A stretch of DNA of 33,465 bases from Polyangia bacterium (lineage in GTDB: Bacteria; Myxococcota_A; Polyangia; Polyangiales; Sandaracinaceae), in assembly GCA_030426845.1 (NCBI GenBank), contig JAUHXR010000064.1, positions 1 through 33,465 of the forward strand. Direction: 5' to 3'. The translations under genes were made by a program, and so were the position numbers. The notes beneath the pieces are model-generated. The model made no database searches and had not been told where the DNA came from. It saw only the letters and a list, made by a program, of their open reading frames with translations. Below, one piece after another: positions 7,216-15,890 of the stretch (positions within the stretch are counted from its first letter, which is position 1; each line of letters begins with the position of its first letter).

Positions 7216-7254
7216 CAGCGCCGCTTCTTCAGCGCCGCTTCTTCAGCGCTTCTT
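7216..7254. repeat. 14-bp tandem repeat across the lgt stop codon
   Basis: Two exact copies of CAGCGCCGCTTCTT (7216-7229, 7230-7243) are followed by a shortened third copy (7244-7254). On the minus strand the short copy supplies the lgt stop codon and the lysine-rich end. The other two lie just after the stop. Confidence 0.8.
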
Positions 7255-8166
7255 CTTCTTGCGCGCGCGCTTCTTGGTCGACGCCGGCGCCGAGTCGGGC
7301 GCTGCTTCCTCATCGGTCTCGTCGGCCGCGCTGGGCGCACGGCCCTTCGCGCGCGCCGCCTTCGACAGCGCGTGGTAGGCGAAGCCGACCGCGGGGACGA
7401 GCGCGAGCGAGATGAGCTGCGACGTCGAGAAGCCGAAGTAGAAGCCGCGCTCCGGGTCGTCGCGGACGTACTCGATGAGGAACCGCCAGGTTCCGTAGAG
7501 GCCGGTGACCGCGAGGATCACCTGACCGCGGAAGCGCCGCCGGCTCCACAGCCAGAACGCGAAGCCCGCGAGCGCGAACCCGAACGCCGACTCGTAGAGC
7601 TGGGTCGGGTGGACGGGCAGGCTGTAGTTGGAGAGGGGGGAGTGATCGTAGGTCGTGACGTGGTGGACCCACGCCGGCGACTCGCGCGGGAAGGTGCCCC
7701 AGTCGCGCAGGAGCTTCGGCGCGTCGGCCGAGAGCGTGGCCCCGAAGTCGCAGCCGAACAGGTAGCAGCCGATGCGCGTCAGCCCGAGGCCGAGCCCGAG
7801 GGTCGGGGCGGTGACGTCCGCCCAGCCGTTGAGCGAGACGTTGGGGTGACGGCGCAGGACGAGCCACGAGCCGAGCAGCCCGCCGAGGAACCCGCCGTAG
7901 GCGACGAGCCCGCCCTTGCGGAGGTCGAGCCACTCCAGCGGGTCGCCCATCTCCTCGAGGTTCGTGACGATGTACAGCACGCGCGAGAAGACGATGGCGA
8001 CGATCGCGGTCACGATGAAGGTGGTCGCCATGACCTCGCGCGACAGGCCCTCGCGCCGCTCGCCGAGCTCCATGATCACGAACCACGCGACGACCAGCGA
8101 GAGGCCGAGCATCACGCCGTACGAGTAGATCTCGCGGCCGCCGATCTCGAAGAGGACGGGGTGCAT
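7243..8166 (-). CDS. lgt: Prolipoprotein diacylglyceryl transferase, variant motif type
   Basis: Lgt moves a diacylglyceryl group from phosphatidylglycerol to the lipobox cysteine of prolipoproteins in the inner membrane. The 307-residue protein starts MHPVLFEIGGREIYSYG and has about seven membrane helices. It contains KGGLVAYGGFLGG (84-96), the Lgt-signature equivalent TRIGCYLFGCDFG (130-142, R131), and HPTQLYES. The E. coli essential-histidine motif (FHGG) reads AYGG here, and the GNF-N-E part of the signature reads GCYLFGCD; this looks like a recognisable variant branch. The C-terminus is a Lys/Arg tail ending in a 14-bp repeat. The ATG at 8166 is chosen because the sequence upstream has no Lgt character. 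A lipoprotein gene diverges next to it. Confidence 0.88.
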   Translation of the reverse strand: MHPVLFEIGGREIYSYGVMLGLSLVVAWFVIMELGERREGLSREVMATTFIVTAIVAIVFSRVLYIVTNLEEMGDPLEWLDLRKGGLVAYGGFLGGLLGSWLVLRRHPNVSLNGWADVTAPTLGLGLGLTRIGCYLFGCDFGATLSADAPKLLRDWGTFPRESPAWVHHVTTYDHSPLSNYSLPVHPTQLYESAFGFALAGFAFWLWSRRRFRGQVILAVTGLYGTWRFLIEYVRDDPERGFYFGFSTSQLISLALVPAVGFAYHALSKAARAKGRAPSAADETDEEAAPDSAPASTKKRARKKKKR

Positions 8167-8247
8167 CGCGCCGCAAGGTAGCAGTGTCCGGCCGAGACGC
8201 CGGGCGGGCGCTCGCCGACGCGGGCGGGCGTGGCTACCCTGCCGGGC

Positions 8248-8769: not shown

Positions 8770-9324
8770 TCACTCCGGCGCGGCGAACGCGCGGAGCGCC
8801 TCGACGGTCGGCGGCGCGCAGGGCGGCTCCAGGGGGACCTCGAGGCAGCCCGCGGCGAGCTCGCGGCCGAGCGCGTCCTCGCGCGCCCAGAGCTTCGCGA
8901 GGTCCTTCACGAGCGCGTCGGGGCGGCCGCGCCAGCCGCCGAACGCGCCCCGCAGCCGCGCGGGGAAGCGCTCGCGCACGATCGCGTCCCAGATCGCGAA
9001 GACGATCTGACCGCCCAGCGCGTCGCCCGCGCCCTCGAGCACCCCGAGCACCACGTCCTCGAACATCGCCACCTGCTCGGGGCGGCGGTTGGGATCGAAG
9101 CGGCTCAAGAGGTAGCGCTCGGTGAGGAAGACCTCCCAGCCGAACGGCCGCGGATCGTCGAGGTCCTCGACCTCCTCGCGGATGCGGTCGACGTCGATCG
9201 CGAAGGCCGCGAGGTGGACGTAGGGGACGCCGTGCTTCGACGCGAGCCCACGGTCCATGATCGTGCTCCGGCCCAGCCCGTCGACCGCGCCCTCGGCGCG
9301 TGGGAGGCTCTTCTTCGTGACCAC
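8770..9324 (-). CDS. Conserved-looking cytoplasmic protein of unknown function
   Basis: The GTG at 9324 gives 184 residues, with VTKKSLP near the start. It has no signal peptide and no membrane segment. The body appears alpha-helical, with FLTERYLLSRFDPNRRPEQ, GGQIVFAIWDAIVRERFP and a Cys-containing tail. Codon use matches the neighbouring genes and supports a real gene. It diverges from the DUF167 gene only 24 bp away and converges on the lipoprotein gene 30 bp away. I recognise no domain. Confidence 0.6.
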   Translation of the reverse strand: MVTKKSLPRAEGAVDGLGRSTIMDRGLASKHGVPYVHLAAFAIDVDRIREEVEDLDDPRPFGWEVFLTERYLLSRFDPNRRPEQVAMFEDVVLGVLEGAGDALGGQIVFAIWDAIVRERFPARLRGAFGGWRGRPDALVKDLAKLWAREDALGRELAAGCLEVPLEPPCAPPTVEALRAFAAPE

Positions 9325-9348
9325 CGGCCGAGCATGCGCGAGGGCGCT

Positions 9349-9639
9349 GTGACTGACCAGCTCCAGGTGGAAGCGCGCGACGGCGCGGTGCGTTTCCCCG
9401 TGCGCGTCTCGCCGCGCGCGAGCCGCGACGCGGTCGGCGGCGTCCACGACGGCGCGCTCCGGGTGCGGGTCACCGCCCCGCCGGTGGACGGCGCGGCCAA
9501 CGCCGCGATCCAGCGCCTGATCGCGCGCCGCCTCGGGGTCGCCAAGGGGAGCGTCCGCATCGTGGCCGGCGAGACCTCCAAGACCAAGACGATCGAGGTC
9601 GACGGCGTCAGCCCCGACGCGGTGCGCGCGCTCGCGTGA
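9349..9639 (+). CDS. DUF167 (YggU) family protein
   Basis: The 96-residue product matches the usual length of the DUF167/YggU family. It has the family pattern VRVSPRASRDAV, then LRVRVTAPPVDGAANAA and AKGSVRIVAGETSKTKTIEV. The molecular function is unknown across the family, which is a small alpha/beta fold. The GTG at 9349 is preferred over an ATG at 9334 because a GAGGG lies at 9340-9344 and the length fits. Its stop abuts the convergent stop of the next gene with no intervening base. Confidence 0.88.
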   Translation: MTDQLQVEARDGAVRFPVRVSPRASRDAVGGVHDGALRVRVTAPPVDGAANAAIQRLIARRLGVAKGSVRIVAGETSKTKTIEVDGVSPDAVRALA

Positions 9640-9963: not shown

Positions 9964-11025
9964 TCACGCCAGATCGGCGGCCTCCGCGCGCTCGACCCAC
10001 CTCCGGATCCGCCGCGGCGCCCACGCCCAGTCGGTCCGCGCGACGTCGGGGAGCGGCGCGGTGCTCTTGGTGGACCAGAACACCACCGGGCCCTCGTCCT
10101 CGCGGATCGCGGCCGCGGCCTTCGCGCTGTAGGTCGTGTCGAGCTCGAAGCCGGCGTGCTCGCGCCACCACGCGATCGCGCGCCGGCCCGCTTCCGTCGG
10201 CTCGCCGTAGCCGCGGCCGAGCTGAGCGCCGTCCACCTCGAGCCCCGCGCCGAGCGCGCGTCGGTCGAACGCGAGGGATCGATCGGCCGTGAGCTCCGCG
10301 AGCCGCGCGGCGGTGCGCTGCGCCAGCCCGACGATCCGGTAGGCGCTCGTCACGGGCCAGGGCGTGACGCGGACGCTGCTCAGCCGCGGGGGGGTGCGCC
10401 AGCCGATCCCCCGGGTCGCGGCCGCGCGCAGGCCGAGGAGGAGCCCCGCGCTCGTGCAGGTCGAGCCGACGCCGACGACCACGCGCTCGGGCGCGGGCAG
10501 CTCGCCCGCCTCGACCTGGAGCGCCAGCTCGAGGCCCGCCGACACGTAGGCGAGCGCTCCGGTCACCGTCGCGCCGCCCGGGACCATCACGGCGGCGTCG
10601 CGGGCGCGGGCCTGCTCCAGCGCGATCGCGAACGGGAGCACCGACCAGTGCGGCAGGTCGACGAGCGCGGGGCGCGCGGCGAGGATCACCCGGCAGTTCT
10701 CGAGCGCGGCCGGGGAGGCCGGCTGTGGGAAGAGGATCGCGCCCACGTCGAGGCCGACCCGCGGCGCGTGGAGCACCGTCGCGACCGCGTGGTTGCTCCC
10801 GTAGGCGCCCGTCGCGTAGATCCGCCGCTTGCCCCGGGCCCGCGCGTCCCCGAGGAGCGCCTCGAGGGTGCGAACCTTGTTGCCGCCGTAGATCGGCGAG
10901 CTGAGGTCGTCGCGCTTCACCCACACGTCTCCGCGGACGTGCCGCGTCGGCGTGGGGAAGTCGCCGAGCTCGACCCAGGGCAGGCGCGCCCGGGGCCACA
11001 GCGTAGGCAGCGCGCGGGCGCTCAC
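9964..11025 (-). CDS. PLP enzyme of the D-cysteine desulfhydrase / ACC deaminase family
   Basis: A 353-residue fold-type II PLP enzyme. GGNKVRTLE places the Schiff-base lysine at K50. GAYGSNHA supplies S77-N78-H79, equivalent to the ACC deaminase S78 region, and TYSAKA near the C-terminus supplies the conserved tyrosine. Family members release ammonia from D-cysteine (with sulfide and pyruvate) or from 1-aminocyclopropane-1-carboxylate. I cannot tell which substrate applies; SNH instead of SNQ disfavours a classical ACC deaminase. The GTG start overlaps the stop of the LysM gene (GTGA). Placement behind a kinase and a LysM protein hints at D-amino-acid or wall-related metabolism, which is an inference. 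Confidence 0.85.
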   Translation of the reverse strand: MSARALPTLWPRARLPWVELGDFPTPTRHVRGDVWVKRDDLSSPIYGGNKVRTLEALLGDARARGKRRIYATGAYGSNHAVATVLHAPRVGLDVGAILFPQPASPAALENCRVILAARPALVDLPHWSVLPFAIALEQARARDAAVMVPGGATVTGALAYVSAGLELALQVEAGELPAPERVVVGVGSTCTSAGLLLGLRAAATRGIGWRTPPRLSSVRVTPWPVTSAYRIVGLAQRTAARLAELTADRSLAFDRRALGAGLEVDGAQLGRGYGEPTEAGRRAIAWWREHAGFELDTTYSAKAAAAIREDEGPVVFWSTKSTAPLPDVARTDWAWAPRRIRRWVERAEAADLA

Positions 11026-12041
11026 TCCGCCGGCGCGGGCCCGGCGTCCGCGTCCGTCACGCCCCCGTCGTCGGGTGCCGTCGCCGCCGCGGCCGCCGCT
11101 TCGTCGCGCCGCGTCACCGCGCGCTCGTAGGCCGCGAGCACGGTGGGTGAGGTGTCGCGCTGATCGGGCCGGAAGTCGGGCTGCCGCTCGAGCACCCGCG
11201 CGAAGGCGTCGGTCGCGAGGTCGCCGCGGTCGAGCGCGACGTAGCCCACCGCGAGCTCGGAGAAGATGCGCACGATCTGGATGTCGGTGAGCTCGCCGAC
11301 CCCGAGCAGCCGGTTGCCGAGCGCGACCGCCTCCGCGTAGCGCCCACGCCGCACGTGCTCGCGGAGCTGAGGGAGCTGCTCGTCGATCTCGTGCTGCATG
11401 TCCCGGGTCGCGCCGACCTCGACGTCGTCCCCGGTGGTGCGCTCGATCAGCGCGCGGCCCTCGTCGCTCAACAGCAGGTCGGCGAGCGGCACGAGGACGA
11501 TCTGCCCGCGCGCGAGCCGCTGGCGGCGCATCGAGTTGAAGCGCATCAGGCGCGACGCCTCGCCCTGGTCGTCGTAGTAGAGCTGCGCGACGCGCCGCAT
11601 CGTGTCGCCCTGTCGCGCGACGTGGCGGAGCGGGTACGGGATCAAGAGCTCCGCGCCGACGTTGGGCGTGTTGCCGCCCGCGTCCGGGTTGGCCTCGATC
11701 AGCGCGGAGACGCGGCGCGGATCGCCGTAGTGCTGGGTCGCGATCTGGGCCCAGCTCTCGCCCTCCTGCACGCGGTGGTAGGAGACCCGCGGGATCGCGA
11801 GCCGGAGGCCGACCACGATCGCGGCGCCGCCCTGGGTCGTCAGCCCGTTCTCGGCCACCAGCACGCTCTCGCGCCGCGGGTCGCCGTAGTAGCGCTGGGC
11901 GATCGAGGCGAGGGTCTCGCCCGGCCGCACGACGTGCATGTACGAGGAGCTGCCGCCCGTCCCGTCGCCCTGGGCCGCGGCCGACGCGGCGGACGACACG
12001 AGGAGCGCGGCGCAGATCGAGAGTACCCGCGTCGCCGTCAC
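11022..12041 (-). CDS. Exported protein with three LysM domains and a helical C-terminal region
   Basis: The GTG at 12041 gives 339 residues and overlaps the kinase stop codon. A signal peptide ending SAASAAAQ (to about residue 24) is followed by three LysM domains (about 35-84, 86-134, 138-185). Each has the pattern V-x-GE/D-T/S...YGD/YDD...N...L-I/V-P. The remainder is helical, with EAVALGNRLLGVGEL and DRGDLATDAFARVLERQPDF resembling TPR repeats, and it ends in an Asp/Ala/Gly-rich tail. LysM modules bind N-acetylglucosamine in peptidoglycan, so the protein is probably held at the wall. It is the middle gene of a three-gene coupled operon. Confidence 0.88.
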   Translation of the reverse strand: MTATRVLSICAALLVSSAASAAAQGDGTGGSSSYMHVVRPGETLASIAQRYYGDPRRESVLVAENGLTTQGGAAIVVGLRLAIPRVSYHRVQEGESWAQIATQHYGDPRRVSALIEANPDAGGNTPNVGAELLIPYPLRHVARQGDTMRRVAQLYYDDQGEASRLMRFNSMRRQRLARGQIVLVPLADLLLSDEGRALIERTTGDDVEVGATRDMQHEIDEQLPQLREHVRRGRYAEAVALGNRLLGVGELTDIQIVRIFSELAVGYVALDRGDLATDAFARVLERQPDFRPDQRDTSPTVLAAYERAVTRRDEAAAAAATAPDDGGVTDADAGPAPAE

Positions 12042-13414
12042 GGCTGGGCCTCCTCCGGCTCCTCGGGCGTCGCGCCTTCGCCGCCCGAGAGGTCGACGTC
12101 GATCGGCTGGGTCTCGCCGTCGACGATCCACACCTCACGGTTCACCTCCGGGAAGTGCGGGTTCTGGAGCTTGAGCCAGTGCCGGCCGGGCTCGAGCGCG
12201 ATCGCGCGCGCCGACGGCGTGGTCATGACGTGCTCGCCGTCGATGTAGACCTCGGCCCAGGGGTAGACGATGAAGCGCAGGTAGCCCGCGCGCTCGAGCA
12301 CCACCCCGCCGGTGTCCTCCCGGGTGAAGCTCTCCGCGTCTGGCGCGAGCGTGCCCGTCGCGGCCTGGATCGCCCCGCCGGTCCCCACGATCGCGAGGAA
12401 CAGCACGAGGTTCACGAGCCAGTTCACCCGCAGCGCCGAGCCGTCCCCGGTGCGCCGCGTCCGGTTGGGCGTGCTCGCGGCGAGGATCTCGGTGGCCTCG
12501 TCCTCCGACACCACCCCGAGCTCGCGCAGGTACATCACCACGCGCGCGTTGTGGTTGATCGGCACGCGCGCGCTGAGGAAGTCCATCAGGTCGTCGATCA
12601 GCGCCTGCGTGGTCGGGTACCGGTTGGCCGGCATCTTCTCCATGCAGCGCGCCATGATGTGCTCGAGCGCGCGCGGGACCTTCGGGTTGAGCTTGCGCGG
12701 GCTCACGTAGCGGTCGAGGCGGATCTTCTGCATCACCGTGCGCGCCTCGTCCTCGACGAACGGCTTCTGCCCGGTGGCCATCTGGTAGAGCACGATGCCG
12801 AGCGAGAAGATGTCGCTGCGGAAGTCGAGCTTGTCGCCGAGGATCTGCTCCGGGCTCATGTAGCTCGGCGTGCCGAGGCCGGTGCCCGTCTCGGTCAGGT
12901 CGCTCAGCTTGTCGTCGCGAGCGATCCCGAAGTCCATCAGCTTCACCTCGCCGTGCTTGCTGATCATGATGTTCGCCGGCTTGATGTCGCGGTGGATGAC
13001 GCCCCGGAAGTGGGCGTAGTCCAGCGCGCGGGCGACCTGCAGGGCGATGATGGCGGCGATCTCGACCGGGAGTCGGGGGGTGATCTCCAGGAGGTCGTAC
13101 AGGTCGATGCCCTGCACGTACTCCATGATGATGTGCATCGTCCCGCGGTCTTTGGCGAAGTCGTAGACGTGCAGGATGTTCTCGTGCTGCAGCGAGGCCA
13201 TGAAGTGGGCCTCGCGCTCGAAGCGCTTGGCGAACCCGCTGTCCACCGCGATCGAGGGCTTGAGGGACTTGATCGCCACCTCGCGCCCGAGCGGCTCCTG
13301 CACGGCTCGGTAGACGACCGCCATGCCTCCGCTGCCGATCTCGGAGACGACCCTGCAGTTGGCAATCCGGTCCAAACCGGCCGGGATCGTGTCAGTGCGC
13401 TCGTGGACTGTCAA
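12038..13414 (-). CDS. Eukaryote-like Ser/Thr protein kinase with membrane helix and PEGA domain
   Basis: The start is read as a TTG at 13414 with AGGGG 5 nt upstream, giving 458 residues. The kinase domain (about 20-285) is intact: glycine loop GSGGMAVV (27-34), VAIK with K49, helix-C E68, HRDIKPAN (141-148), DFG (161-163), and a GTPSYMSPEQ activation segment. A spacer leads to one membrane helix (about 329-350) and a C-terminal PEGA domain (about 373-445) on the far side. Such kinases are abundant in myxobacteria. The PEGA domain may sense wall or polysaccharide state. It is first in a GTGA-coupled operon with the LysM protein and the PLP enzyme. An ATG at 13537 would add about 41 poorly conserved-looking residues. 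Confidence 0.92.
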   Translation of the reverse strand: MTVHERTDTIPAGLDRIANCRVVSEIGSGGMAVVYRAVQEPLGREVAIKSLKPSIAVDSGFAKRFEREAHFMASLQHENILHVYDFAKDRGTMHIIMEYVQGIDLYDLLEITPRLPVEIAAIIALQVARALDYAHFRGVIHRDIKPANIMISKHGEVKLMDFGIARDDKLSDLTETGTGLGTPSYMSPEQILGDKLDFRSDIFSLGIVLYQMATGQKPFVEDEARTVMQKIRLDRYVSPRKLNPKVPRALEHIMARCMEKMPANRYPTTQALIDDLMDFLSARVPINHNARVVMYLRELGVVSEDEATEILAASTPNRTRRTGDGSALRVNWLVNLVLFLAIVGTGGAIQAATGTLAPDAESFTREDTGGVVLERAGYLRFIVYPWAEVYIDGEHVMTTPSARAIALEPGRHWLKLQNPHFPEVNREVWIVDGETQPIDVDLSGGEGATPEEPEEAQP

Positions 13415-13563: not shown

Positions 13564-13578
13564 TTGGCACAGCACCTG
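13564..13578 (+). promoter_or_regulatory. Candidate sigma54 (-24/-12) promoter
   Basis: TTGGCAC at 13563-13569 is followed after AGCAC by CTGC. This gives the GG-N10-GC spacing of sigma54 promoters, with one mismatch from the TGGCAC-N5-TTGC consensus. Transcription would start close to the ATG at 13594, leaving almost no leader, which weakens the call. The rest of the 179-bp divergent gap (13415-13593) shows nothing else identifiable. Confidence 0.25.
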
Positions 13579-13593
13579 CGAGGCCAGGCGCGC

Positions 13594-14208
13594 ATGCGAC
13601 GCGCGCCCCGCACCATCAAGCAGCTTCAGAAGGTCGGGCTCCTCCACGGGCTGGAGGGCGACGAGGCCTGGCGCCTCTACGACGCGGTCGGCCGCGGCGC
13701 CCCCATCACCGACCTGCTTCGCCTCTACTACGCGGCCGACGGCGACGCGGTCGAGTCGCTGTGGCGCCGCCAGTCGGACGCCTACGCGGAGGCGCACAAG
13801 ACCGAGCGCCCGTCGGAGGTCGCTCAGGCGCTGCTCCACGCCATGCCTGACATCGGCTCGCTCAAGCTCACGCTCAGCCGCGAGGCGCTCGCGGTCGCGA
13901 ACGACCGGCACACCGTGACGGTCTCCCAGGTGGTGCGTCACTCGCGTGTCAGGACGCGCGTCCATCGGGTCGCGCTGACATCGCCGCGTCACGTGGTGCA
14001 GGCGGTCAACGCGCTGCTGGCCCACGACGATCACCCCCGCCGCTTCGTCGAGCTGGCCTGCCAGCGCGGGCTCCGCGTGTTCGTCGGGCTCGAGGCGGAG
14101 GCTGCGCGCACGGTGCTCGAGTGGCGCGCGACCACCCACCCGGACGTCGAGGCGATGTACGCCTTCGCGTGCTGGGATCGCGCTCCGTCCGTCCGCGCGG
14201 TCGGCTGA
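13594..14208 (+). CDS. Protein of unknown function
   Basis: The ATG at 13594 gives 204 residues; an in-frame TTG lies at 13564. The protein is soluble, with a basic N-terminus (RRAPRTIKQLQKVG), then a helical segment (LYDAVGRGAPITDLLRLYYAADGDAVESLW). The second half looks alpha/beta, with HTVTVSQVVRHSRVRTRVHRVAL and RGLRVFVGLEAEAART. There is no signal peptide, membrane helix or known motif. It is divergent from the kinase gene and upstream of the TonB cluster, from which a 153-bp gap separates it. Confidence 0.6.
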   Translation: MRRAPRTIKQLQKVGLLHGLEGDEAWRLYDAVGRGAPITDLLRLYYAADGDAVESLWRRQSDAYAEAHKTERPSEVAQALLHAMPDIGSLKLTLSREALAVANDRHTVTVSQVVRHSRVRTRVHRVALTSPRHVVQAVNALLAHDDHPRRFVELACQRGLRVFVGLEAEAARTVLEWRATTHPDVEAMYAFACWDRAPSVRAVG

Positions 14209-14312
14209 GCGCGCGCGAGCGAGGCCGCGCGCGGCGGGGCGTGTTTCCGTCCCGTTGCTGGCGCGCCATGTTCCGACACGGATCCGCCCGTAGACCGACC
14301 CTCGACTGACAC

Positions 14313-14329
14313 AGGCGGGAAACCTGCCT
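14313..14329 (+). other. Short hairpin ahead of tonB
   Basis: AGGCGGG and CCTGCCT pair around an AAA loop (7 bp, one G-T wobble). No T-run follows, so a classical terminator is unlikely. It lies 33 bp before tonB, inside a 153-bp gap where I see no good promoter and no metal-regulator box. It may be a leader-RNA structure. Confidence 0.3.
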
Positions 14330-14361
14330 GGCTTAGCTCTGGGGTCGTCCAGGTACGGGCG

Positions 14362-15126
14362 ATGTTCAGCGACTTCGACAAGAGCAAGGCGCCGCAGGAG
14401 GGCCGCGGTCGTCGGACCGCGTCGGCGGTGATCGCGGGGGGCATCTTCGCCCTCCTCGCGGTGGCGCTCGCCGCGGCGCTCGCGATCCGCCACGAGATCC
14501 AGCGGCGCGAGGAGGAGCTCGCGGTCCAGTTCGCCACCCTCGACGCGCCCGAGGTCGAGCCGGAGCCCGAGCCCGAGCCCGAGCCGGAGCCCGAGCCGCA
14601 GCCCCGACGCGCCGCGCCCGCGGCCGCGAGCGACGGTCCCCCGACCGAGATCCCGGATCAGCGCCCCGATGAGTCGGACGGCGAGCTCACCGACCCCGGC
14701 GACGTCGGGCCGGTCGGCGGGACGCTCGACGGAGTCGAGGGCGGCGCCGACATCGCGCCGCCCGAGCCGGTCGCGCCGCCCCCGCCCGAGCCTCCGCCGG
14801 GCCCGCCGCGCCGGCCGCGCCCGCCGCCCCAGCAGGAGCGTGTCGAGGTCACGCCGCCGCGGCGCCTCAGCGGCTGCGACACCCCCGAGCGGCCGTCGAG
14901 CCTCGACGGCGCCACCGCGGAGACGATCCGCGTCCGCGTCCGCGTCGTGATCGGCGCGGACGGCCGGGTGATGCGCGCGACGATCACCGAGGGTCACCCG
15001 CTGATCCCCGAGCCCACGATCTTGAGCTGCGTCGAGTCCCGGCTCTACGAGCCCGCGAGCCTCGAAGGCACGCCCGTCCCTTACGTCCTCTCCTACGTCT
15101 TCACCTTCCGCCCCGACATCCTCTAG
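14362..15126 (+). CDS. TonB-type energy-transducing protein
   Basis: 254 residues: a short cytoplasmic N-terminus, one membrane helix (about 20-43), a Glu-Pro repeat (about 66-79), a long Pro-rich periplasmic spacer, and a TonB C-terminal domain (about 165-254). That domain includes VRVVIGADGRVMRATITEGHP and a final YVFTFRP. TonB carries proton-motive energy from ExbB/ExbD to outer-membrane receptors. It is the first gene of a dedicated plus-strand operon, 14 bp before exbB. Two cysteines in the C-terminal domain (SGCDTP and SCVES) could form a disulfide, as in TonB domains of some related proteins. I give no gene symbol because several TonB paralogues are likely in such a genome. Confidence 0.88.
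   Translation: MFSDFDKSKAPQEGRGRRTASAVIAGGIFALLAVALAAALAIRHEIQRREEELAVQFATLDAPEVEPEPEPEPEPEPEPQPRRAAPAAASDGPPTEIPDQRPDESDGELTDPGDVGPVGGTLDGVEGGADIAPPEPVAPPPPEPPPGPPRRPRPPPQQERVEVTPPRRLSGCDTPERPSSLDGATAETIRVRVRVVIGADGRVMRATITEGHPLIPEPTILSCVESRLYEPASLEGTPVPYVLSYVFTFRPDIL
14557..14598. repeat. (Glu-Pro)7 hexamer repeat in tonB
   Basis: Seven GAGCCN hexamers encode the EP run of TonB. Such runs are rigid and help the protein span the periplasm. Confidence 0.8.
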
Positions 15127-15140
15127 CACCGGAATCAACG

Positions 15141-15890
15141 ATGGAAATCGATCTTGTCGAGCTCTGGGCCAACATGCCGGCCCTCGTGAAGGCGGTGGTG
15201 GTCGTCCTCACGCTGCAGGCGCTCGCCACCATCTACGTGCTGGTCGACCGGCTCATCCTCCTGATGAGCAGCCAGTCGCGCTCTCGCGCCTTCGCCGCCG
15301 AGGCGGGCGCCAAGCTCGCGGCGGGTCGCTTCTCCGAGGTCGCCGCGATCGCGAAGAAGCACGACAAGAGCCACCTCGCGAGCTTCATCGAGACGGGCGT
15401 CGAGGTCTTCCTCGCGCGCGCGGAGGACGGTCACGACCGCGAGAAGGCGGCCGAGTTCGCCAAGCGCGCGCTCGAGCGCAAGGGCGAGAACCTCTCGGAG
15501 AGCCTCAACCGCGGCCTCAACATCCTCGCGTCGACCGGGTCGACGGCGCCGTTCATCGGCCTGCTCGGCACGGTGCTCGGCATCCTCAACGCCTTCCGCC
15601 TCATCGGCGAGGAGTCGTCGGGCGGGATGGCGACCATCGGCCCGGCGATCTCCGAGGCGCTGGTGGTCACCGGCTACGGCCTCCTGGTCGCGATCCCGAC
15701 GGTGCTGGTGTTCAACTGGCTCAGCGGGAAGATCGCGAAGTACGAGGCGGGCCTCGCCAACGCGGGGAGCGAGCTCGTCGACCAGCTCGAGGCGGACGTC
15801 GCGGTCCAGCCGAAGCAGGGCGCCAAGAAGAACGGCAGCGACGCGAAGGTCCCGGCGGGCACGGGCGCGCCGGCGACCGCGATGGCCTGA
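15141..15890 (+). CDS. exbB: ExbB/TolQ/MotA-family proton channel protein
   Basis: 249 residues with three predicted membrane helices (about 14-38, 130-155 and 175-200). The conserved ExbB/TolQ stretch reads ASTGSTAPFIGLLGTVLGI, followed by TIGPAISEALVVTGYGLLVAIP. A cytoplasmic helical loop lies between helices 1 and 2. The C-terminal tail is Lys/Ala-rich. ExbB forms the pentameric scaffold around ExbD that uses the proton gradient to energise TonB. It lies between tonB and two exbD genes, so the name ExbB is preferred over TolQ. Confidence 0.92.
   Translation: MEIDLVELWANMPALVKAVVVVLTLQALATIYVLVDRLILLMSSQSRSRAFAAEAGAKLAAGRFSEVAAIAKKHDKSHLASFIETGVEVFLARAEDGHDREKAAEFAKRALERKGENLSESLNRGLNILASTGSTAPFIGLLGTVLGILNAFRLIGEESSGGMATIGPAISEALVVTGYGLLVAIPTVLVFNWLSGKIAKYEAGLANAGSELVDQLEADVAVQPKQGAKKNGSDAKVPAGTGAPATAMA

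Follow-up and report, generated by a model that had tools for sequence, protein, structure and literature searches.

Three genes lie head to tail on the minus strand of a 33,465-nucleotide stretch of DNA from a Polyangia bacterium of the family Sandaracinaceae (GenBank assembly GCA_030426845.1, contig JAUHXR010000064.1, positions 1 to 33,465; the whole stretch is called the window below). They encode a protein kinase with a PEGA domain, a protein with LysM repeats and an enzyme of the pyridoxal phosphate (PLP) type, in that order, and each junction is an overlap of 4 bp. The association of the kinase gene with the LysM gene is old; the three genes together are not one old unit. We view the pair as a putative envelope-sensing Hanks-type kinase whose putative sensing domain is carried by a separate, translationally coupled protein, and a two-piece receptor kinase of this kind is the reading to which we lean.

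Conservation of the kinase-LysM pair

The kinase gene (12038-13375) ends in TGA, and the four bases GTGA at 12038-12041 combine this stop with the GTG start of the LysM protein gene (11022-12041; 339 amino acids). The same four bases recur at 11022-11025, where the stop of the LysM gene meets the GTG start of the PLP enzyme gene (9964-11025). A preliminary description of this DNA, made from the letters alone, had already reported both overlaps, and they are indeed present; the word ‘fused’ in its title was wrong, as these are separate genes that overlap. Its coordinates for the LysM and PLP genes stand, but alignment of orthologues places the start of the kinase probably near the TTG at 13375 and not at 13414, where an alternative TTG is found. 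This start stays uncertain because the N-terminal length of the kinase varies among relatives. The domains that it named were all recovered by Pfam, with Pkinase at 1.1e-57 and PEGA at 24.3 bits in the kinase, LysM at 1.3e-14 in the second protein and PALP at 1.2e-20 in the enzyme.

The LysM protein was found in 108 of the 115 genomes of the order Polyangiales that were searched, that of the window included, with a best E of 4.7e-21 or lower in each. Its surroundings were examined in 100 loci (the window plus sets of 79 and 20), of which 93 are from genomes of the order, leaving out 15 of the 108, and seven are from outside it. A pair was counted only if the kinase match reached the ectodomain, and some matches are partial at cut contigs. 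A PEGA kinase gene lies directly upstream of the LysM gene on the same strand in 78 of the 100 loci, and all seven loci outside the order have a kinase match just upstream, partial in two of them. In four further loci the upstream sequence is shorter than 1.3 kb, and in two of these it amounts to fewer than 20 bases.

The overlap is exactly 4 bp in 66 of the 78 pairs, and the start codon of the LysM gene is then ATG (37), GTG (27) or TTG (2). The remaining 12 junctions lie at -11 (seven), -8, -1 and 0 (one each), or show no clear start (two). This is more than chance would give: as a control, start codons were counted in the frame of the LysM gene, and one occurs at offset -4 in 66 of the 78 pairs but at the other same-frame offsets between -13 and +29 in 0 to 12.

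Further kinase frames were seen near some LysM genes. At four loci of Sorangium and Polyangium (L180, L183, L184 and L189) a different kinase frame follows the LysM gene after 44-80 bp and a PEGA kinase was not seen adjoining it, and at L239 there is a kinase on both sides of the LysM gene.

Joint presence and absence

To examine the co-occurrence of the two proteins, two profiles, one for the LysM protein (cut-off 1e-20) and one for the kinase ectodomain (cut-off 1e-14), were run against 282 phylum genomes; that both searches covered the same 282 genomes was judged from equal numbers and matching listings. The LysM protein is present in 47 genomes and the ectodomain in 51, and 47 have both. 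The order accounts for 43 of the genomes, of which 40 have both and three, 97-100% complete, have neither (G036, G054 and G068). The best candidates of each genome were scored, up to seven for the LysM protein and up to 21 for the ectodomain, and for that reason genomes outside the order are less securely scored as lacking either one; in G036, G054 and G068 all candidates were scored, which makes absence firmer there. G054 has one LysM-type match, which covers no more than positions 6-79 of the profile. As these three genomes fall in two genera, both genes were probably lost together on two or more occasions. Among the seven of the 115 searched order genomes that lack the LysM protein, a strong ectodomain match exists only in G095 (88% complete), with weak ones in G004, G014 and G102.

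Where the two genes are not side by side, both are still present. The ectodomain was found elsewhere in the genome, at 2.2e-22 or better, in 20 of 20 genomes chosen for this (adjacency is missing in 18, unclear in G108 and unexamined in G044); in three of them, G062, G077 and G059, about 5 kb separates it from the LysM gene. Conserved order, overlap and co-occurrence together give good support to the coupling that the preliminary description had proposed for the kinase-LysM junction.

The four genomes with the ectodomain and no strong match to the LysM protein (G338, G248, G144 and G339) are informative about the partner. The frame with the ectodomain also carries a kinase domain in all four, and it overlaps the gene of a protein with an export-like start, by 1 bp in G338 and by 4 bp in G248, G144 and G339. 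The partner in G248 has two LysM domains. That of G338 has none and matches the profile of the TPR-like domain at 64 bits, and the partners in G144 and G339 likewise lack LysM and, in a search of 13 sequences, matched it weakly, at about 12 bits. These cases suggest that the TPR-like domain, kept in the LysM-less partner of G338, is the constant, kinase-facing part of the partner and LysM the variable part.

The two proteins

The kinase has the catalytic lysine, the HRD motif and the D-x-G motif, all invariant in an alignment of 27 orthologues. Its AlphaFold2 model (mean predicted local distance difference test score, pLDDT, of 84.8) consists of the kinase domain, a long helix and a beta domain, and a fold search with this model returned PknB kinase domains as the best matches. 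The helix, residues 313-341 of the model (12356-12442, minus strand), coincides with a hydrophobic stretch of the sequence and is the predicted membrane helix, so that the beta domain would lie outside the membrane. The PEGA match is weak but passes the Pfam cut-off (20.8 bits). The ectodomain occupies 12089-12286 on the minus strand, with PWA, P and G positions that are invariant in the 27-sequence alignment, and the PEGA match in the Pfam search of the whole genome spans 12089-12256.

A role of the kinase in a defense system was considered and rejected, as the matches from PADLOC are not specific: they comprise 35 families, among the matches listed mostly PD-T4-6, and lie largely over the kinase domain.

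The LysM protein begins with a hydrophobic, signal peptide-like N-terminus that is conserved in the alignment, judged by eye, and it looks like an exported protein. Its AlphaFold2 model (mean pLDDT 91.8) shows three LysM domains followed by C-terminal TPR-like helices. The three repeats, seen by Pfam as three stretches and in the model, take up residues 33-186 or thereabouts (11484-11945, minus strand). The TPR-like domain, identified from the model and by Foldseek, comprises residues 211-321 approximately (11079-11411, minus strand), and it is this part of the protein that is shared with the LysM-less partner of G338. Foldseek matched the protein both to LysM proteins, among them the ectodomains of plant CEBiP and CERK1 at low TM-scores, and to TPR proteins. 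Its best sequence match among solved structures is Kbp, named a potassium-binding protein.

The PLP enzyme gene

The third gene has a different history. A close homologue of the PLP enzyme (E of 4.3e-62 or lower) is present in 22 of the 115 genomes of the order, and it is linked to the pair in four of the 22, namely the window, G003, G005 and G008. In the other 18 the PLP and LysM genes are on different contigs or, in G084, about 1 Mb apart. The four linked cases form one clade with support 1.0 in a tree of 61 of 64 pairs; the other three were dropped because the kinase was short or an internal stop was present. In the same family, the sister genomes G001, G002, G006 and G007 have the pair and no PLP homologue at that level. 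The 4-bp overlap of the LysM and PLP genes occurs only in the window and in G003, where GTGA is repeated at L071:7981-7984. In G005 and G008 the order and strand are the same, with about 1.4 kb between the two genes; the gap in G005 holds a frame of 433 amino acids (L069:8007-9308) with a lipobox-like start, as read by eye, and without a Pfam family.

The gene order proposed in the preliminary description does therefore extend beyond this strain, with both GTGA overlaps in G003, and conservation among relatives is nevertheless split: the kinase-LysM pair is widely conserved, and the PLP gene is linked to it in a single clade. The trio as an ancestral operon was rejected, the PLP gene being absent or unlinked in most relatives. 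Either a single event brought the gene to the pair, or it disappeared from this position in other lineages, and in both cases most pairs are without it there. The gene is probably a neighbour outside the ancestral unit, which may well be co-expressed with the pair in its one clade of Sandaracinaceae. The neighbourhoods of the 18 unlinked PLP loci have no family in common in more than four of the 18, apart from the PLP gene itself and the frames that overlap it.

The nearest relatives of the enzyme among solved structures are an ACC (1-aminocyclopropane-1-carboxylate) deaminase homologue and D-cysteine desulfhydrases, including 1j0a and 7ysk. Eight NCBIfam models were listed for it, and all score far below their cut-offs, the best at 104.3 against 450; the closest named ones among them are XcbE, CuyA, D-cysteine desulfhydrase and ACC deaminase. 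With such scores, no D-amino-acid activity can be assigned to the enzyme. The subfamily is recognizable by its motifs, with GGNK, the motif of the PLP lysine, in 21 of the 22 loci, (S/T)NH in 22, GS(T/N)CT in 20 and W(S/A/T)T(K/R) in 22, and GYG is present as well. The family model appears to cover it only marginally, since the G003 homologue (P0004) gives no match to Pfam PALP at E 1. That homologue (L071:7981-9084) is 66% identical to the enzyme of the window over the aligned part. Nothing on the enzyme was found in the literature, the top-ranked results matching other terms of the search.

A two-piece receptor and its alternatives

What most eukaryotic-like kinases sense is, to our knowledge, not established. 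Myxococcus xanthus and Sorangium cellulosum are given as having the most of them among the genomes compared in PMC2887360. No report that we recognized as describing the kinase-LysM pair turned up in the literature searched, which consisted of titles and the starts of abstracts, with few subscription journals covered.

Three pieces of published background lead us to infer a two-piece receptor. PASTA kinases are described as wall sensors that use the ectodomain of the kinase itself (PMC6213207), PEGA is listed among the domains that associate with peptidoglycan (PMC7159879), and short overlaps are reported as enriched among the gene pairs of heteromeric complexes in E. coli, at 30.4% versus 6.8% (PMC10666635). 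The kinase would span the inner membrane, with the catalytic domain on the cytoplasmic side and the small PEGA domain on the outer side. Ribosomes would re-start at the overlapping stop and start so that the second gene is translated, and the LysM protein, once exported, may bind peptidoglycan or a related glycan through its repeats. The TPR-like domain could then dock on the PEGA ectodomain, and binding to the wall would alter the assembly or activity of the kinase, reporting the state of the envelope to targets in the cytoplasm. If this is so, the coupled partner predicts the sensing half of a kinase, the likely class of its ligand and the binding interface, and coupling offers a rule for locating the partners of other membrane kinases.

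Several observations weigh against a receptor of this kind. Adjacency is missing in 18 of the 100 loci, and a single family of the order contributes 17 of these. In G048 there is 1.2 kb of sequence upstream of the LysM gene and no kinase in it, and since the ectodomain sits on other contigs in both G048 and G108, the two genes are probably unlinked in these genomes. G152 and G333 barely pass the ectodomain cut-off (8e-15), and the match in G333 is not on the contig of the LysM gene. The case for a receptor is weaker on account of these four genomes, two probably unlinked and two passing only just. Shared ancestry enters into the co-occurrence counts, and the Fisher values calculated for them ignore relatedness. 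A mirror-tree test was weak: distances of the ectodomain and the partner correlate, beyond kinase-domain divergence, with a partial r of 0.21 for the LysM protein and 0.34 for its TPR-like part, relatedness having been removed only to that extent. LysM domains are also found in proteins that bind other ligands, as in Kbp, and 69.6% of the short-distance gene pairs of E. coli are reported not to be complex subunits (PMC10666635).

The last of these figures bears equally on the most serious alternative, namely that the overlap fixes co-expression only. The kinase and the LysM protein would then serve the same envelope process without ever touching, for example with the LysM protein as a structural, wall-anchoring scaffold and the kinase sensing something else. 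Neighbouring genes of prokaryotes are reported to overlap by 4 or 1 bp far more often than they show any other spacing (PMC10666635), and one family keeps both genes while having them separated. Nevertheless, the joint presence and absence across the phylum and the retention of the TPR-like domain where LysM is missing fit the role of a partner better, and we regard mere co-expression as rather unlikely. Still less probable is simple inertia, in which an overlap of 4 bp, once formed, is hard to lose and its conservation says little about function. Moving an overlap does require several changes in concert, the age of the pair may be explanation enough, and the persistence of the overlap was measured for this pair alone. 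The junction has changed in 12 of the 78 pairs, however, and elsewhere the pair has been broken while both genes stayed.

The preliminary description had gone further than a pair and suggested that the trio links wall sensing to the turnover of D-amino acids. A single pathway of three genes would agree with the two GTGA overlaps of the window and G003, with the same order and strand across a gap of about 1.4 kb in G005 and G008, and with the motifs of the enzyme, which are kept in most close homologues. It fits poorly with linkage in only four of the 22 order genomes that have a close homologue, a set confined to one clade (support 1.0), with the pairs of G001, G002, G006 and G007 that lack a PLP homologue at that level, and with model scores from which no substrate can be assigned to the enzyme. 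The proposed link thus finds no support here, and we hold a common pathway to be very improbable.

Other kinases of the same genome

The genome of the window has 77 PEGA matches. The 40 regions around PEGA matches hold 34 frames with a kinase domain, and ten of these are followed by a frame of at least 100 amino acids starting at -4. One of the ten, at L271, is probably spurious, as it overlaps a kinase frame located on the opposite strand. Five of the downstream proteins are supported by Pfam: one with PEGA (L263), three with TPR and PEGA (L275, L278 and L283) and an FHA-sigma54 activator (L279). At L291 a protein with TPR and PEGA starts at -14. The downstream proteins at L263, L275, L278, L283 and L291 have export-like starts, and the kinases before them are membrane proteins or possibly so; these five are possible further pairs of kinase and partner. 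The PEGA match that drew each of these five regions into the survey lies in the downstream protein itself, which biases the sample towards such neighbours, and open frames often arise by chance where the GC content is high. For these reasons the survey is a tentative lead and gives no count of systems. The tails of ten kinases (with L291 included and L271 left out) have PEGA above the cut-off in four (L252, L277, L279 and L288), below it in three (L263, L275 and L291) and not at all in three (L278, L283 and L285).

It is possible, though we would not rely on it, that membrane kinases with PEGA ectodomains in the Myxococcota are in general split receptors. A kinase as signalling half would be co-translated with an interchangeable, exported, TPR-type sensing half, LysM being one option, and lineages would exchange the sensing part and retain the TPR-like dock, with several such pairs possible per genome. 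This generalization is weakened by the kinase tails of the same genome, only some of which carry PEGA. Elsewhere in the window, an open-ended protein on the minus strand (3-1760) has a PEGA match near its C-terminal end (285-485) and a start that looks PilZ-like by eye.

Neighbouring genes

On its downstream side the PLP gene is followed by lgt (7243-8220; Pfam LGT) and an open reading frame of 225 amino acids (8770-9447), which is overlapped by a DUF167 gene on the opposite strand (9214-9639). The lgt gene, for prolipoprotein diacylglyceryl transferase, comes after the LysM gene in G001 and G006; counting these two, lgt is within about 1.2 kb of LysM in no fewer than 21 of the 80 loci compared. 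DUF167 is near LysM in at least 14 of these loci besides those of the clade of the window. On the other side and divergent from the kinase, 13564-15890 holds an open reading frame of 214 amino acids without a Pfam match, a protein whose TonB_C match is weak and falls short of the cut-off, and a MotA/TolQ/ExbB gene. The TonB-like and the TolQ-like gene likewise occur upstream in G003, G005 and G008. When the open frames around the 80 loci were crudely clustered into families, the result was noisy in this GC-rich sequence, and no counts were taken from it.

Comparison with known systems

The PLP enzyme resembles the group of D-cysteine desulfhydrase and ACC deaminase in having 1j0a and 7ysk as relatives and in the motifs GGNK, (S/T)NH and GYG. 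It differs from that group in motifs of its own, GS(T/N)CT and W(S/A/T)T(K/R), and in falling below every listed NCBIfam cut-off.

Exported LysM proteins that serve as scaffolds form a family with which the LysM protein shares the signal peptide-like start and the repeats; here, in contrast, the gene is coupled to that of a kinase and the protein has a TPR-like domain. In plants, LysM repeats work together with a transmembrane kinase in the receptors CEBiP and CERK1. The pair is alike in this respect, and in the fold matches of the LysM protein to the PDB, CEBiP ranks first and the CERK1 ectodomain eighth. The global match is weak, however, with a TM-score by query length of 0.14-0.17, and the kinase described here is itself without LysM, so that the plant system is an analogy only.

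The closest comparison is with the PASTA kinases PknB, PrkC and Stk1. Common to both are a PknB-like catalytic domain, with 325.9 bits to NF033483 and PknB structures at the top of the fold search, one predicted membrane helix, an extracytoplasmic module, which is predicted for the present kinase, and probably the sensing of the wall, as described for PASTA kinases in PMC6213207. The score to NF033483 is below the cut-off of 450, and the kinase aligned only to positions 10-300 of the 563 of that profile. No PASTA family was found in the Pfam scan of the kinase, and no co-transcribed cognate phosphatase among the eight proteins of the window and the further proteins that were scanned, the whole genome not having been searched for one. 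The difference lies in the architecture: this kinase has a PEGA ectodomain, and the putative wall-binding repeats are on a separate protein. The kinase-LysM pair is best read as like the PASTA kinases in logic and not by membership.

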